NCBI GenBank assembly: GCA_020720765.1
Contig: DYOB01000001.1
Location: 1-45,221, forward strand
Source: Borreliella garinii
Lineage (GTDB): Bacteria; Spirochaetota; Spirochaetia; JABEVK01
DNA length: 45,221 nucleotides
Reading direction: 5' to 3'
Below the pieces are notes generated by a model. It was not told the origin of the DNA. It saw nothing but the letters and a program-made list of their open reading frames with translations, and made no database searches. Positions 2,793-9,635 of the stretch are shown in pieces. Each line of letters starts with the position of its first letter. The first letter of the stretch is position 1. The translations under genes and the position numbers were made by a program.

Positions 2793-3221
2793 CTAAATTT
2801 TCTCTTCGAGCATTTTAGCGGCGGCGTTCCAAGCGAGGGTTGCACATTTAACCCGTACCGGGAGTTGGACGACCCCAGACAGGGCGGCAAGGTCCCCCAT
2901 CGTTTCCAGGTCGGAAATCGAACCCTTGCCTTTCATGATTTCAAGAAACCGGGCGACCAAGTTTTGTGCCTCGTTTAAAGTTTTTCCTTCAAGTACGTCA
3001 CACATCATATCGGTGCTCGACATGGAGATGGAACAGCCTGCCCCGTCGAAGTTGCATTGTTTCACGACTCCCTTTTCCACACTGAGCTGGAGCCTCACCT
3101 GGTCCCCGCAACTCGGATTCTCGAAGAGTGGAGCATCAGGGTTGAGGATGGCACGATAGTTGGGATTTTTAAAATGATCACGGATCATCTCTTGGTACAT
3201 TTCATCAAAACCTTGGTTCAT
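2793..3221 (-). CDS. sufU: SufU-type Fe-S assembly protein / sulfur acceptor
   Basis: Accepts persulfide sulfur from the cysteine desulfurase SufS and passes it to the SufBCD scaffold. At 142 residues it has the normal length of the family. The three conserved cysteines and the aspartate are present: C38 and D40 in NPSCGD, C63 in GAGCSIS and C126 in VKCATLAW. The insertion before the third Cys is the one that separates SufU from IscU. In SufU these residues bind zinc and exchange it with SufS. It is the last gene of the suf operon; its start overlaps the end of sufS by four bases, suggesting coupled translation. I see no convincing intrinsic terminator after it. Confidence 0.95.
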   Translation of the reverse strand: MNQGFDEMYQEMIRDHFKNPNYRAILNPDAPLFENPSCGDQVRLQLSVEKGVVKQCNFDGAGCSISMSSTDMMCDVLEGKTLNEAQNLVARFLEIMKGKGSISDLETMGDLAALSGVVQLPVRVKCATLAWNAAAKMLEEKI

Positions 3222-4444
3222 AGGACGGTCACGGCCTCCTCAAGATTTTTTATAAAAAAATCAACTTCCTCAACGGTGTTGTAAAGATAGAAACTGGCAC
3301 GCGCTGAACTCACGACTCCGAAACGCCGGCCCAAGGGATGGGCGCAGTGATGGCCTGCCCGGATAGCGATTCCCCTCGAGTCGAGAAAAGCAGCAAGGTC
3401 GTGGGCGTGGATTCCCGGCAGATCAAAAGCCACGATTCCGCCCCTCTCTTTAGCCGATCCTAAAACTCGAAGCCCTTTTATTGTTGACATTCCTTCAAGC
3501 GTTCTCTGGGTGAGGGTTATTTCGTGCTGATGGATGGCATCCAGTCCAACTTTTTCCAAGTAGCGGATAGCTGCTGCCATACCTACGCTTCCTTCGACGT
3601 TTGGGGTACCAGCTTCGAACCGGAAAGGAAGATCGTTGAGGTCGAACCCGTCGAGCCGAACGCTCCTGATCATCTCGCCTCCTCCATGGAAGGGGGGGAG
3701 GGTTTCCAAAATAGGTTTCGCTGCATAGAGAACGCCGATCCCCATGGGGCCGCACATTTTATGCCCGGAAAATGCAAGGAAGTCGGGTTTAAGAGCCCGA
3801 ACATCCATCTTCATATGAGGTACGCTCTGAGCCCCGTCGATAAGCACAGGGATACCCTTGCCGTGGGCTTTTTCAATGATGTATTGAACGGGGTTGATGG
3901 TCCCTAAAACATTACTCATTTGGGTGATGGCTACTAGCTTAGTCCTCGTTGTGAGAAGGGTTTCAAAAGAATCGAGGTCGAGTGTGCCATCATCGAGAAC
4001 TGGTATTATTTGGAGTTTAAGCCCGTGCCTTTCGGCAGCCATAAGCCAGGGAACCAGGTTGCTGTGGTGTTCCATGGTGCTGATAAGGATTTCGTCGCCC
4101 TGGTGGAATTTTTCAGGCAGGGTGCGAGCAACGAGGTTGATACTCTCCGTAGTCCCGCGGGTGAAAATGATCTCCTCGAGAAATTCTGCGTTTATAAATT
4201 TTCTTACAGCTTCGCGTGAATCTTCAAGAAGCGAAGTAGCGCGTTCGCCCAGGGTGTGAATCCCCCGGTGGACGTTGGCGTTGGAAGTGGTGTAATACTC
4301 CGAAATGGAATCGATAACAGAATGAGGTTTCTGGGTAGATGCAGCGTTGTCCAGATAAACAAGCGGTACATCTTTTCCTTGTTTCTGAAAGACCGTGCCG
4401 AGAATGGGGAAATCCTGTCTTAGCACTAAGGGTACTAAAGGCAT
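3218..4444 (-). CDS. sufS: SufS cysteine desulfurase (PLP-dependent)
   Basis: Takes sulfur from L-cysteine, giving alanine and an enzyme persulfide that feeds Fe-S cluster building. The 408-residue length fits the group II desulfurases. The PLP-binding lysine is K229 in FSGHKMCGP, and the catalytic cysteine is C367 in RAGHHCAHP. Both are in the SufS-type context, and the N-terminal DNAASTQKP motif is intact. It starts six bases after the sufD stop and overlaps sufU by four bases, so SufS and its acceptor SufU are coupled. It depends on PLP, which the pdxS/pdxT pair elsewhere in this window would supply. Confidence 0.97.
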   Translation of the reverse strand: MPLVPLVLRQDFPILGTVFQKQGKDVPLVYLDNAASTQKPHSVIDSISEYYTTSNANVHRGIHTLGERATSLLEDSREAVRKFINAEFLEEIIFTRGTTESINLVARTLPEKFHQGDEILISTMEHHSNLVPWLMAAERHGLKLQIIPVLDDGTLDLDSFETLLTTRTKLVAITQMSNVLGTINPVQYIIEKAHGKGIPVLIDGAQSVPHMKMDVRALKPDFLAFSGHKMCGPMGIGVLYAAKPILETLPPFHGGGEMIRSVRLDGFDLNDLPFRFEAGTPNVEGSVGMAAAIRYLEKVGLDAIHQHEITLTQRTLEGMSTIKGLRVLGSAKERGGIVAFDLPGIHAHDLAAFLDSRGIAIRAGHHCAHPLGRRFGVVSSARASFYLYNTVEEVDFFIKNLEEAVTVL

Positions 4445-4450
4445 TTTCTG

Positions 4451-5662
4451 TCAGCCTTCCCTGAGAAGCTGTTCGAGGGTCGACTCCACGGGTATTCGGA
4501 ACTGGGTGGGAAGAGAATCGATAATTCCCTGGAAGAGACCCATGGTGATTAAAACCTTGGATTCTGAAGGTGAAAAACCACGGGATTGAAGGTAATGAAG
4601 TTGTTCCTCGTCGACTTTTCCTGTCGTACTCCCGTGGGTGCACTTGAGGTCGTTGTGATCTATTTTTAGCTGGGGCAGACTGTCTGCTCTAGCTCCGTCG
4701 TTGAGAATAAGATTTTTAATGGAGAGGTAGGCATCGGTTCCTTTTCCTTCAGGGGTCACTTCGATAAGGCCCTGGAATATGGTTCTTCCTCTGTCGCGTA
4801 CAGCACCTTTAAACAGGGAGTTGCTTTTCCCCCGGGGAGCCTTATGGTTGAGTACCAGACGCAGGTCTTTGTGTTGTTTTCCCTTGCAGACAAAGATGCC
4901 CTGGGCTTTGATTTCCGCTCCCTCACCGATAAGGGAAGCGTCCCACTGGGTCTTCGCAGTAGCCGTTCCAATGCTCACAAGATTATAGTTGAAAACGCTG
5001 TTTCTTTCCTGGACGCTTAGGCTGTGATCGACTTGGTAGGAGGTCTGGGAAAGGGCCTGGATCTCGGTTAAAGTAAAATTTGCGCTTTCTCCGATAAAAG
5101 CCGAAGTTCCTCCATTGATAAACACAGTGTCTGAACTATCCCATCTTACAACCGCGTGCACCTCGGAAAGCCGGCGTGCCTTGAAAAGTATCCGGGGCCT
5201 GTACATAGTTTTTTCCATGGGGTTTGAGGATGCGTTCCAGTGAACAAGGATGGGTTTATCGAGTACGGCATTTTCATCAATCTCAATGATTAAAGTAAAA
5301 TCCATACGGGCCAGATGATCGCTAAGAAACCTGTCGGGGTTTTGGAAAAGGTGGTTTTTGAAATTTTCTTCATCTTGGTCTTCGAGGTTTCGGATGGTGA
5401 TCTTCTCAGAACCGGACCATATTTTTACCTTTCGAGAATCTTCAATTAGAACCACTGCACTATACGATGAATCTTTTTCGTAGTCAGAAATTTCCAGATG
5501 TTCAAAATGGGTTTGAAATTCATCCACAGGCAGACTTTCCATCTGCGTGCGTCGCCAGAGTTCAACTTTCTTGGTAGGCCAGGATTGCAGGTCGCATTCC
5601 AGGGAGTACTTGTTCCTCATTTGTACGAGCCATTGAGGCTGTGTAGTGATGGCGAATTTCAC
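4451..5662 (-). CDS. sufD: SufD scaffold subunit of the SufBCD complex
   Basis: Partner of SufB in the SufBC2D scaffold on which clusters are assembled. At 403 residues it has typical SufD length. The N-terminal third is helical and variable, followed by a long beta-helix core characteristic of SufB/SufD, with the motif [17 protein letters not shown] around 285-300. The C-terminal region has the family pattern [20 protein letters not shown], close to the matching stretch of SufB. Its start overlaps the sufB stop by four bases (ATGA type) and sufS follows six bases later. SufD is usually more diverged than SufB, and that holds here. Confidence 0.94.
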
Positions 5663-7068
5663 CCGACAGATCCCTCCATTTCCAGTTCAATAAGACGGTT
5701 TAGTTCTATCGCGTATTCCATGGGAAGCTGTTTAACAAGGGGGTCAATAAATCCGTTGACTATCATCATGCTCGCTTCAGTTTCATCGATTCCCCGGCTC
5801 ATCAAATACAGGAGCTGGTCTTCGCTGATTTTACTCACCTTGGCTTCGTGTTCGATACTGACATCGTCGGAGCTGATTTCCATATAGGGGTAGGTGTTGC
5901 TTTTACTGTTTTCGTCGATGATCAAGGCATCGCAATCCACCTTGCTTTTAATCCCAGTCATCCCCGGGGCGACTTTTATCAAGCCGCGGTAGCTTGAAAT
6001 ACCCCCGTTTTTTGAAACTGATTTTGCAGTGATAACACTTGACGTATTGGGTGCGTTATGGACCATTTTACCGCCGGTATCCTGCTGCTGGTTTTTTCCC
6101 GCAAAAGCTATACTGAGAACCTCCCCGTGTGCGCCTTCTCCGAGGAGAAAGACCGAGGGGTATTTCATGGTGCGTTTTGATCCAAGGTTTCCATCCACCC
6201 ATTCCACCGTCGCTCTTGCGTGGGCATGCGCGCGTTTGGTGACCAGGTTGAAAATATTTGTACTCCAGTTTTGGATAGTAGAGTACCTTACACGAGAACC
6301 GGGCATGGCGATGATTTCCACCACGGCGGAGTGCAAGGAGTCGGAAGAGTAGGTAGGCGCAGTGCAACCTTCAATGTAATGAACGAAGCTACCCTCTTCG
6401 GCTATAATCAAGGTCCTTTCAAACTGCCCAAAATTCTGCGAGTTGATCCTGAAATAGGCCTGGACGGGGATGTCGACTTTTATACCCTTAGGCACGTAGA
6501 CAAAACTGCCGCCGCTCCAAACAGCCGAGTTCAGAGCTGCGAATTTATTGTCGTTATAGGGAATCACAGTTCCAAAATACTTCTTGAAAATTTCAGGGTG
6601 TTCCCTTATTCCGGTTTCAGGGTCGACGAAAATCACTCCCTGGTCCTGAAGATCCTGCCTGATGCTGTGGTAGACCATTTCAGAGTCGTACTGAGCTCCG
6701 ACACCGGCGAGAAACTTTCTCTCAGCCTCGGGAATACCAATGCGGTCGAAAGTTTTTTTTATATCCTCGGGAACATCTTCCCAGCGTTTCTGTGTTTCCG
6801 CAGTGGGCTTGATATAATAGTAAATACTTTCAAAGTCGATCTCTGAAAGGTCGGCACCCCAGGTCGGCATGGGAAGTTTTCTGAAAGCTTCAAGGCTTTT
6901 AAGGCGGAAGTTGAGCATCCATTCGGGCTCGCCTTTTGATGCGCTTATTTGTTCAACTACCTCCGGGTTAAGACCAATTTGAGTTTTTACAACAGAGCGT
7001 TCCGGGAAGTGGAAGCCATACTTGTAATCACCTATATCATAATCCTGGATCGGCGCGTCAGCTGGCAT
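5659..7068 (-). CDS. sufB: SufB scaffold subunit of the SufBCD complex
   Basis: Core scaffold protein that holds the nascent Fe-S cluster with SufD and is driven by the SufC ATPase. At 469 residues it matches the usual SufB length. Clear family stretches are [39 protein letters not shown] and [21 protein letters not shown], followed by the SufB C-terminal block [21 protein letters not shown]. The Cys in EGCTAP is the conserved one in this region. The start codon overlaps the 3' end of sufC by 11 bases, so the two are probably translationally coupled. Confidence 0.97.
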
Positions 7069-7834
7069 TTTCCGTCTCCTCTATTCCATACTGGGCTTTC
7101 ACCCAGTCGTAGCCTTTTTCCTCGAGAACCGTGACAAGATCCTGCCGGCCGGAAGTTACGATGCGTCCCTTATACATGATATGGACAACATCGGGCCGGA
7201 CGTAGTTGAGAATGCGTTGGTAGTGGGTGATAATCAGAGCTCCGAAGTTCTCGCTCCTCATTTTATTGATTCCCTGGCTGACCACTTTTAATGCGTCGAT
7301 GTCCAGGCCGGAATCTGTTTCGTCAAAAATAGCCATTCCAGGCTTGAGTGAAAGCAGTTGAAGGATCTCCATGCGTTTTTTCTCTCCGCCGCTGAAACCT
7401 TCATTGAGGTACCTATTGATAAAATTCTGATCCATTTCGAGGTAGTCCATATCGGCCCTGACCTGTTTGATAAAGGCGCTGATATTCATTTTTTGACCTT
7501 TCCCCTCTAGCTGTATCTCCACTGCGCGTTTGAGAAACTTACCCACGGTCACTCCGGGGATTTCCACCGGGTACTGAAAGGCCAGGAAAAGGCCCAACCG
7601 AGCCCTTTCATGAACTTCTAGGTCCAGGATATTTTTATTATCAAAGAAAACCGAGCCGCCAGTCACTGTGTAATGCGGGTGTCCCACAAGGACGTTAGCC
7701 AAGGTGCTCTTTCCTGAACCGTTTGGACCCATCAGGGCAGCGATTTCCCCGGTCTTAAGTTCCAGATCGATACCTTGAAGAATAGGTTTCCCCTGAATTT
7801 CAGCTTTTAATCCTTCGATTCTTAACGTGCTCAT
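7058..7834 (-). CDS. sufC: SufC ABC-type ATPase
   Basis: Cytoplasmic ABC ATPase that binds SufB and SufD and powers cluster assembly; it is not a transporter. The motifs are complete: Walker [10 protein letters not shown] near residue 36, ABC signature [11 protein letters not shown] near 149, Walker B with the catalytic Glu in [12 protein letters not shown] and the switch His in LIITHYQR. The length (258) is normal. An AAGGAA Shine-Dalgarno site lies a few bases before the ATG. It is 15 bases downstream of sufT and overlaps sufB by 11. Confidence 0.97.
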
Positions 7835-7849
7835 ATTATTTCCTTATTC

Positions 7850-8152
7850 TTATATAGGGATTCCAAACATGAGCTTCATTTCTTCACTCATCATATCTTT
7901 ATCCCAGGGTGGATTCCAAACTATTTGTGCCCGGATGTCTTGTCTTCCAGTTGCACCCTTGACAGCTTCCTGGACCTCCTCCAAAATCATGTCGCCAACG
8001 GGACAGGCTGGGGAGGTGAGTGTAATATCCACCTCGATCCAATCACCCTTGTCTTCGGCCCGGTAGATTAAACCAAGGTCGACAATAGGTAAACCCAGGT
8101 CGGGGTCGACAACCTCGCGCATAAAGTCAATGAGTTGATCCTGAGTATACAC
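7850..8152 (-). CDS. sufT: SufT-like MIP18/DUF59 Fe-S maturation protein
   Basis: First gene of the suf operon. Proteins of this family help mature or deliver Fe-S clusters to target enzymes. The 100-residue protein is a single MIP18 (DUF59) domain with VVDPDLGLPIVDLGLIY near the N-terminus, the conserved Cys in TSPACPVGD and the C-terminal NPPWDKDMMSEEMKLMFGI. The start is GTG at 8152, chosen because an AGGAGG Shine-Dalgarno site (8157-8162) sits four bases upstream. The context confirms a role in cluster handling rather than in phenylacetate oxidation (PaaD), which shares the fold. Confidence 0.92.
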   Translation of the reverse strand: MYTQDQLIDFMREVVDPDLGLPIVDLGLIYRAEDKGDWIEVDITLTSPACPVGDMILEEVQEAVKGATGRQDIRAQIVWNPPWDKDMMSEEMKLMFGIPI

Positions 8153-8170
8153 TGCGCCTCCTATCTAATT

Positions 8171-8187
8171 CCGACTAATTTAGTCAG
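8171..8187 (-). promoter_or_regulatory. IscR type 1-like operator overlapping the suf -10
   Basis: CTGACTAAATTAGTCGG on the minus strand contains a perfect 6+1+6 palindrome (8173-8185). It fits the core of the published type 1 IscR box (YYGACTRwwwYAGTCRR) at every position; the outer flanks match less well. It covers the -10 hexamer, so a bound Rrf2-family repressor would block RNA polymerase. No Rrf2-family gene is in this window. Confidence 0.55.
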
Positions 8188-8205
8188 AATAAGGAAAGAG
8201 GTCAA
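8177..8205 (-). promoter_or_regulatory. Sigma70-type promoter of the suf operon
   Basis: On the minus strand, -35 TTGACC (8200-8205) is followed by a 17-base spacer and -10 TAAATT (8177-8182). Transcription would start near 8170 and leave a leader of under 20 bases containing the AGGAGG site of sufT. The -35 overlaps the stop codon of the upstream recQ-like gene, so suf has its own promoter even though recQ lies upstream on the same strand. Confidence 0.6.
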
Positions 8206-9635
8206 GGGCGTAAGACTAAGCCTTTATAAGACCCCTTTTCCGGGATAAGAACCTGGGACGTTTGGGTCCAGGATTCTACGATGTCCTCCACGGTTTCTAG
8301 ACTCAATGCGTAAAACAGTCCCCAGCCTATTTCAAGGTGGAGCTCGTGTTTAACGGCGTCCGGGCTCGGCCTTCCCCAAAGGAGGCGGGACCATTCGTGT
8401 GGTGTCCATCTTTTATGATGTTCTTTGAGGAGGGCTTGAAGGGGGGCTTCGTTCGGTTCCTCGTTTTTTTCCCCGGCGCAGATATCGCAGCCGGAACACG
8501 TTTCAAGTTTGCTGTCGAGGGCTTTGAGCAGGAGTTCCCTGCGGCAATACTGGCTGTTTTCGCAATAGGTTTTATTATCTTCACTTTTGAATTTGGAATG
8601 CCGTGTGACCAACTGGATAGCCCTGGCCGGTTTGCCGTCGCGGCCGGCCCTTCCGCTTTCCTGGAGGTAAGAGGTCAGCGACTCCGAAGGGTCCCAATGA
8701 ATAACGGTTCGAATACCCGCTTTATCCACTCCCATCCCGTAGGCAGAAGTCGTACAAAGGACACCGGTTTCAGAAGCAAAAAACCAAGTTTCGACTCGGG
8801 TCTTTTCTTCACGCGTCAAACCTGCGTGGTAAAATCGGACCTCGGTGTCACAGGTTTCTGAAGATATCAATTCAGCCAGGGATTGGACACCCATCCTGCT
8901 TGAAGCAAAAACTATCAAAGGCCGTTGTTCGGTTTTCAAAAGTTCGAGAAGCATCTGCCTTCGCGAAAACCCCTTTACGACCTTGTAATAGATATTGGGC
9001 CTGTCCGGAATCCTACGGTAAGAATTAAATTTTAAATTTTGAAAAAGGTTGGCTTCGAGCGCATTCTGTGTCTGGATTCCAGCGGTTGCCGTAAAAGCGC
9101 TCAGTCGGCCGGCTGCAAGTGAAAGAGCTCCTTTGGCCGCCTCGAGGTAGGCTGGACGGAAGGAGAGTCCCCATTGATCGATACAATGCGCCTCGTCAAA
9201 AACGAGATGACCGATCTTTATCTTTTGAAGTTTTTCACGCACTTCGGCTTGAACCAACATTTCAGGGTTTGTGATCAGAACCTTAACAGAACCATTCGAC
9301 ACCCGCTCCCAAAGGTCGCTGCGGTGTTTCCGGGTCTGCCCGCCGCGCAACACCAAAGAGGGAATCCCCAGGGATTGAAAACGCCGGTTCTGGTCTTCCA
9401 TCAGGGCGAGAAGCGGATAAACAATAACCGTCAACCCCTCGAGGAGAAAAATCGGCAAGGTAAAACATAGACTTTTTCCCGCACCTGTCGGAAAAATGAT
9501 AAGGTTGGGTCCATTCTGATTGACGATACCCAGGATTGCTTGTGCTTGAAAAGGGTAAAGGTAGGGAACTCCGAGTTTTTCTTTAGCCAATTCCTGGATA
9601 TGAGTTTCATTCCACATAAGAGAATAAAGCGCCAA
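8202..9635 (-). CDS. recQ: RecQ-family ATP-dependent DNA helicase
   Basis: 3'-5' DNA helicase of superfamily 2, acting in DNA repair and recombination. Motifs are in order: Walker A FPTGAGKSLCF near residue 50, the DEAHCIDQWG box near 145 that is typical of RecQ, the TATA motif, and motif VI QESGRAGRDG near 330. Four cysteines after it (YCENSQYC and CSGCDIC) form the RecQ zinc site. The protein is short (477 residues): after a shortened, atypical C-terminal region there is no HRDC domain. The TTG start at 9635 has AAAGG six bases upstream; an in-frame ATG at 9617 is an alternative. It lies 30 bases after the LiaF-like gene and may share its transcript. Confidence 0.9.
   Translation of the reverse strand: MALYSLMWNETHIQELAKEKLGVPYLYPFQAQAILGIVNQNGPNLIIFPTGAGKSLCFTLPIFLLEGLTVIVYPLLALMEDQNRRFQSLGIPSLVLRGGQTRKHRSDLWERVSNGSVKVLITNPEMLVQAEVREKLQKIKIGHLVFDEAHCIDQWGLSFRPAYLEAAKGALSLAAGRLSAFTATAGIQTQNALEANLFQNLKFNSYRRIPDRPNIYYKVVKGFSRRQMLLELLKTEQRPLIVFASSRMGVQSLAELISSETCDTEVRFYHAGLTREEKTRVETWFFASETGVLCTTSAYGMGVDKAGIRTVIHWDPSESLTSYLQESGRAGRDGKPARAIQLVTRHSKFKSEDNKTYCENSQYCRRELLLKALDSKLETCSGCDICAGEKNEEPNEAPLQALLKEHHKRWTPHEWSRLLWGRPSPDAVKHELHLEIGWGLFYALSLETVEDIVESWTQTSQVLIPEKGSYKGLVLRP

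Follow-up and report, generated by a model that had tools for sequence, protein, structure and literature searches.

A predicted IscR-type operator on the suf promoter of a spirochaete, with a second copy before fbpA

Validated type-1 sites of the Rrf2 protein IscR in Pseudomonas aeruginosa overlap promoter elements, with repression by holo-IscR only, and the footprinted sites share 64-76% identity with the consensus (16-19/25) (PMC6599224). In Rhodobacter, one Rrf2 protein, also named IscR, serves both iron import and cluster assembly (PMC4618611). RisR of Myxococcus xanthus, of the IS6 subgroup of Rrf2, is an operon-linked repressor of a sufBCDSUT-type operon and binds Tt/gGAC-N7-GTCCt/a over the promoter (PMC9973013).

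We compared these systems with the suf operon in a 45,221-nucleotide stretch of Borreliella garinii DNA (the window). As with E. coli and P. aeruginosa IscR, a 25-bp site resembling ATASYYGACTRWWWYAGTCRRSTAT lies over promoter elements; however, the site lies on suf, not on isc, whereas E. coli suf carries a type-2 site and is activated. Unlike in E. coli and P. aeruginosa, ferric uptake shares the box, and the gene of the candidate regulator, L001, is unlinked and without a box of its own. A single Rrf2 Fe-S regulator over Fe-S assembly and iron uptake would resemble Rhodobacter IscR and rhizobial RirA (PMC4618611), but the operator of Rhodobacter IscR is the 19-bp Iron-Rhodo-box and that protein has a single Cys, while RirA gives L001 a much lower score (53.6 bits). 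RisR is alike in placing a GAC-N7-GTC operator over a suf promoter, but it is encoded first in the operon and its subgroup is distant from IscR, whereas the L001 clade is sister to E. coli IscR.

A type-1-like palindrome over the suf promoter

The operon sufT-C-B-D-S-U runs on the minus strand from 8152 down to 2793, directly downstream of a recQ-like helicase gene (8202..9635, minus strand). Its first gene is sufT (DUF59/FeS_assembly_P, PF01883; 7850..8152), which starts with GTG at 8152, and it continues with the genes for the SufC ATPase (7058..7834; assigned by PF00005 and position), SufB (5659..7068; PF01458), SufD (4451..5662; PF01458), the cysteine desulfurase SufS (3218..4444; PF00266) and SufU (2793..3221; PF01592). 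A Shine-Dalgarno sequence, AGGAGG (8157..8162, minus strand), precedes the sufT GTG (8152-8150) and is found in the congener, G001, as well. We detected no match to Rfam families in the window. Near the end of sufU (window about 2421-2758) lies a dispersed intergenic repeat that is also present on three other contigs (L002 85-274, L003 1974-2029 and L055 496-540), its pieces being 87-100% and mostly at least 95% identical; it occurs twice near contig ends and may help explain the 527-contig assembly.

Between recQ and sufT we found a palindrome whose core (8171-8187) reads CCGACTAATTTAGTCAG on the plus strand of the window and CTGACTAAATTAGTCGG on the minus strand. The core matches YYGACTRWWWYAGTCRR at 17/17 positions, the sole exact match in the window, and its symmetry reaches ATTCYGACTAA-T-TTAGTCRGAAT with 10/11 arm positions paired. 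Around it we predict a 25-bp IscR type-1-like operator, AATTCCGACTAATTTAGTCAGAATA (8167..8191, no strand assigned), that is kept in relatives. A sigma-70-type promoter, TTGACC-N17-TAAATT, is predicted on the minus strand at 8177..8205. Its -35 TTGACC (8205-8200) contains the stop codon of recQ, which ends at 8202, and its -10 TAAATT (8182-8177), placed after a 17-base spacer, falls within the operator; the columns align with the congener's TTGATC-N17-TATATT. The first-pass annotation had described a box that fits the core of the type 1 IscR site and covers the -10 of this promoter right before sufT, and both the fit and, on the minus strand, the coordinates were borne out.

Against the full 25-bp E. 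coli type-1 consensus, the suf box matched 18/25 positions (shuffle p 0.027), which is within the range of the footprinted P. aeruginosa sites (64-76%; PMC6599224). Loose copies proved uninformative and were discarded: at three or fewer mismatches the window had 8 copies of the motif against 6.7 expected, which is no enrichment, and one-mismatch cores were rarer genome-wide than the reversed control. The exact form GACTRWWWYAGTC occurred at two sites in the whole genome (3.4 Mb, 527 contigs), before suf and before fbpA, whereas by our own estimate chance would give this exact 17-mer about 0.1 times in a genome of 3.4 Mb. As a predicted operator, the suf box is convincing through its conservation and not as a single site.

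The copy before fbpA and the box in related genomes

The second exact site, ATAACCGACTATTTTAGTCGGTTAT, is a perfect 25-bp palindrome located 36-37 bp before fbpA, whose product is a ferric-iron binding protein (best match PDB 7w3w, E 3e-83). Here the box abuts a predicted -35, TTGACA, in both this species and the congener. We estimate the centre of the site at roughly -47, so activation is also possible, and of all the steps in the mechanism that we propose below, the sign of regulation at fbpA is the weakest. The first-pass annotation had suggested looking for further copies before Fe-S genes. The genome-wide search returned the exact copy before fbpA, an iron-uptake gene that the annotation had overlooked, and no convincing copy before other Fe-S genes.

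A type-1-like box that scores 22/25 and is a two-mismatch copy of the palindrome (L055, contig C396, about 9518) was also seen where a dtxR gene ends, immediately upstream of a gene resembling ferredoxin-NADP reductase. IscR of P. aeruginosa controls fprB, so the reductase-like gene may be a weak third target. We considered it as a third member of the regulon and left it tentative, given that the orthologous position in the congener is degenerate (18/25) and other members of the family reach 16-19/25.

We then followed the box into relatives. In the congener, the 25-bp pattern at three or fewer mismatches gave exactly two matches, before suf and before fbpA, and the reversed 25-bp control at the same threshold gave none in either genome. 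Matches to ATASYYGACTRWWWYAGTCRRSTAT were 18/25 for suf and 23/25 for fbpA in this species, and 22/25 and 23/25, respectively, in the congener. The suf promoters of the two species can be aligned position by position as CCCTTGAYC-N17-TAWATT, and in both the box covers the -10. The alignments thus show a position of the site that differs between suf and fbpA but is kept within each gene.

A sequence-only search model made from ten sites ranked fbpA and suf first in both congeners. It found suf in six further genomes (G003, G004, G027, G052, G068 and G085) whose sites had helped to build it, and also in G011, whose site lay outside the model. In G068, two further top sites, again outside the model, lie before an uptake gene of the siderophore type and before an FbpA-like gene. 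Matches of model R1 were also seen before an O-acetylhomoserine sulfhydrylase-like/metA pair (L219 in G028) and before a glutaredoxin-like gene (L227 in G075), with the variants ATACCTTATTAAAATAGTAAGGTAA and ATACATTACTATTTTAATAATGTAT.

For an independent test, we scored the published E. coli consensus, which is external to these data, in the 160 bp before each suf operon. For the 22 spirochaete suf operons that have no linked rrf2 gene, the upstream DNA was enriched in the consensus with a Fisher p of 1.7e-15, or 2.9e-13 without the genus of the window, where single p-values were floored at 0.001 and some relatives are close to each other. Conservation of the palindrome upstream of suf, on which the earlier proposal had been staked, holds for the congener and for many relatives in the class. 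A clear box is absent from roughly half of these 22 operons, and likewise from some half of the suf operons of genomes that have the L001 clade; most fbpA orthologs in the class have no box.

Candidate readers of the box

Three Rrf2 genes are present in the genome (L001, L002 and L003), all away from suf. This agrees with the first-pass suggestion of an IscR-like protein encoded elsewhere, one of the three lying in the sister clade of E. coli IscR. That gene, L001, is on contig C124 beside an aconitase gene, and its 15-member clade is sister to E. coli IscR with support 97/88 in a tree with three references only (IscR and NsrR of E. coli, and CymR of B. subtilis). The best solved relative of L001 is likewise E. 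coli IscR (2e-20). Like IscR of E. coli and P. aeruginosa, L001 has the DNA-contact residues E43, Q44 and R59 and the wing residues G60 and P61, all invariant in alignment A2, the exceptions among the contact residues named in the literature being S40/Y41. When compared with the IscR ligands Cys92, Cys98, Cys104 and His107, three Cys align in L001, with spacing X9 then X5 and one extra Cys. Unlike in the E. coli and P. aeruginosa proteins, the His107 equivalent is Tyr in this species; it is His in the congener. L001 scored 120 bits, below the NCBIfam IscR equivalog cut-off of 207.55, and we therefore call it IscR-like and not IscR.

E. coli iscR is autoregulated. No box was detected upstream of L001-clade genes in the 14 genes examined (one with little upstream sequence), and we dropped both autoregulation of L001 and linkage to isc or suf, as the gene lies on another contig beside aconitase with no box upstream. 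All genomes with a suf box have the L001 clade, but so do nearly all the rest; the clade is present in 21/22 genomes with unlinked suf loci, so a co-occurrence test has almost no power; G019, the one genome with an unlinked suf operon and without the clade, is also without the box. In G056, a cysK-like cysteine synthase gene stands before an IscR-clade rrf2 gene (L060) and their ends overlap, which suggests a cysteine-related role of the IscR clade in some lineages.

In at least seven relatives of the class, the suf operon begins with an rrf2 gene from a different clade (96/88); loci with this second subfamily directly before sufT are L028, L033, L036, L038, L039, L040, L043 and L046. The arrangement seen with RisR of the IS6 subgroup is thus found in those relatives and not here, where recQ precedes sufT, and the earlier remark that no regulator is nearby is right for this genome. 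A swap of regulators at the suf operon in class relatives is possible. Just before the linked rrf2 in several relatives we observed AAATACGAC-N7-GTC-like palindromes (combined p 0.001). From these sequences, GAC-N7-GTC appears to be a half-site rule common to cluster-binding Rrf2 proteins, and an Rrf2 reader of the box in the window is supported since the same half-sites are common to the linked-rrf2 palindromes and to the RisR operator.

Among the alternatives, the serious rival is the DtxR family. An iron- or manganese-sensing repressor of this family with the palindrome as its operator would equally explain the joint appearance of the box on suf and ferric uptake. This genome has three DtxR-family genes and the two-mismatch copy at the end of one of them, and in G068 a dtxR-type gene stands directly before the boxed fbpA. 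However, the fit to the IscR type-1 consensus extends over its full length, most closely at fbpA and at the congener's suf, and in relatives the gene before suf is rrf2, not dtxR, with a GAC-N7-GTC-like box in front. Moreover, an Rrf2 protein, RisR, has been footprinted on Tt/gGAC-N7-GTCCt/a (PMC9973013). We weighed these observations together and consider a DtxR-family reader unlikely. GAC-N7-GTC is not known from the DtxR, IdeR and MntR boxes. The Fur box, too, is not known to resemble the site at suf and fbpA. We dropped an argument from the absence of Fur and DtxR, as both families are present (DtxR proteins in 13/13 and Fur proteins in 12/13 of the genomes checked).

Genes of the fbpA type adjoin dtxR in G068 (L177, C44) and in G032 (C1:2677777-2679262), and in G082 (L243, C12:31654) such a gene is separated by about 300 bp from a fur gene in the opposite orientation. 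Regulators of iron uptake seem to be exchanged between lineages.

Less probable again is that another Rrf2 protein of this genome, L002 or L003, reads the box. Both are members of the family, and L002 has retained the recognition-helix E-Q pair; but L002 is CymR-like by score and without cluster cysteines, and L003, which has no E-Q pair, groups apart, weakly with NsrR. L003 (C469) adjoins a ferredoxin-like gene and a hydroxylamine reductase (hcp) gene and is likely a nitrosative-stress regulator. Furthermore, G027 has a suf box and a single Rrf2 gene, of the L001 clade. The least credible explanation is that no regulator is involved and the AT-rich palindrome arose by chance or purely from promoter constraints. 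The modest shuffle p of the lone suf box (only 0.03) and the lack of enrichment of loose matches speak for it; against it stand the recurrence of this site before both suf and fbpA in the two species of the genus and the class-wide enrichment of an external consensus, and conservation already contradicts it.

Proposed working of the switch and its wider occurrence

We conclude that the box probably serves as the operator for an IscR-like repressor of the Rrf2 family whose gene lies elsewhere in the genome, with L001 as the candidate. Binding, the cluster and the direction of regulation are what we infer in the following scheme. A dimer of L001, carrying an Fe-S cluster on its three conserved cysteines, would sit on the 25-bp type-1-like palindrome. 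Over the suf -10, the holo-protein would block transcription of sufTCBDSU while clusters are plentiful, a proposal that draws on the position of the site and the behaviour of characterised IscR, and the box at fbpA would tie ferric-iron uptake to the same cluster signal. Once clusters run short, the apo-protein would leave and the suf and fbpA operons would be released.

The open-access literature that we searched gave no description of a spirochaete regulon of the IscR type; most likely, a known type of switch is here extended to another phylum. With a type-1-like site and an IscR-clade protein both present, deep conservation, as judged from sequence, fits better than independent invention. 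In one reading, plausible but tentative and somewhat short of probable, spirochaetes keep an IscR-clade master switch with the proteobacterial type-1 operator, an unlinked gene over SUF and ferric import, and other spirochaete families replaced it at suf by an operon-linked Rrf2 with a variant GAC-N7-GTC operator, an ancient recognition rule being common to two diverged Rrf2 subfamilies. If the IscR-type switch proposed here is real, the type-1 recognition rule is older than the split of Proteobacteria and Spirochaetes, or has moved between them, and this lineage has both the assembly of clusters and the import of iron under one sensor of cluster status. The suf and fbpA operons would form a defined two-operon regulon that is testable in vitro.

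Type-1-like palindromes, ATATCTGACCGACTTGGTCAGTATT and ATATCTGACCAAGTCAGTCAGTTTT, were also seen before sufC in a member of the Zixibacteriota (L104) and in an uncultured sediment bacterium (L106), hinting that this type of box may occur in further phyla.
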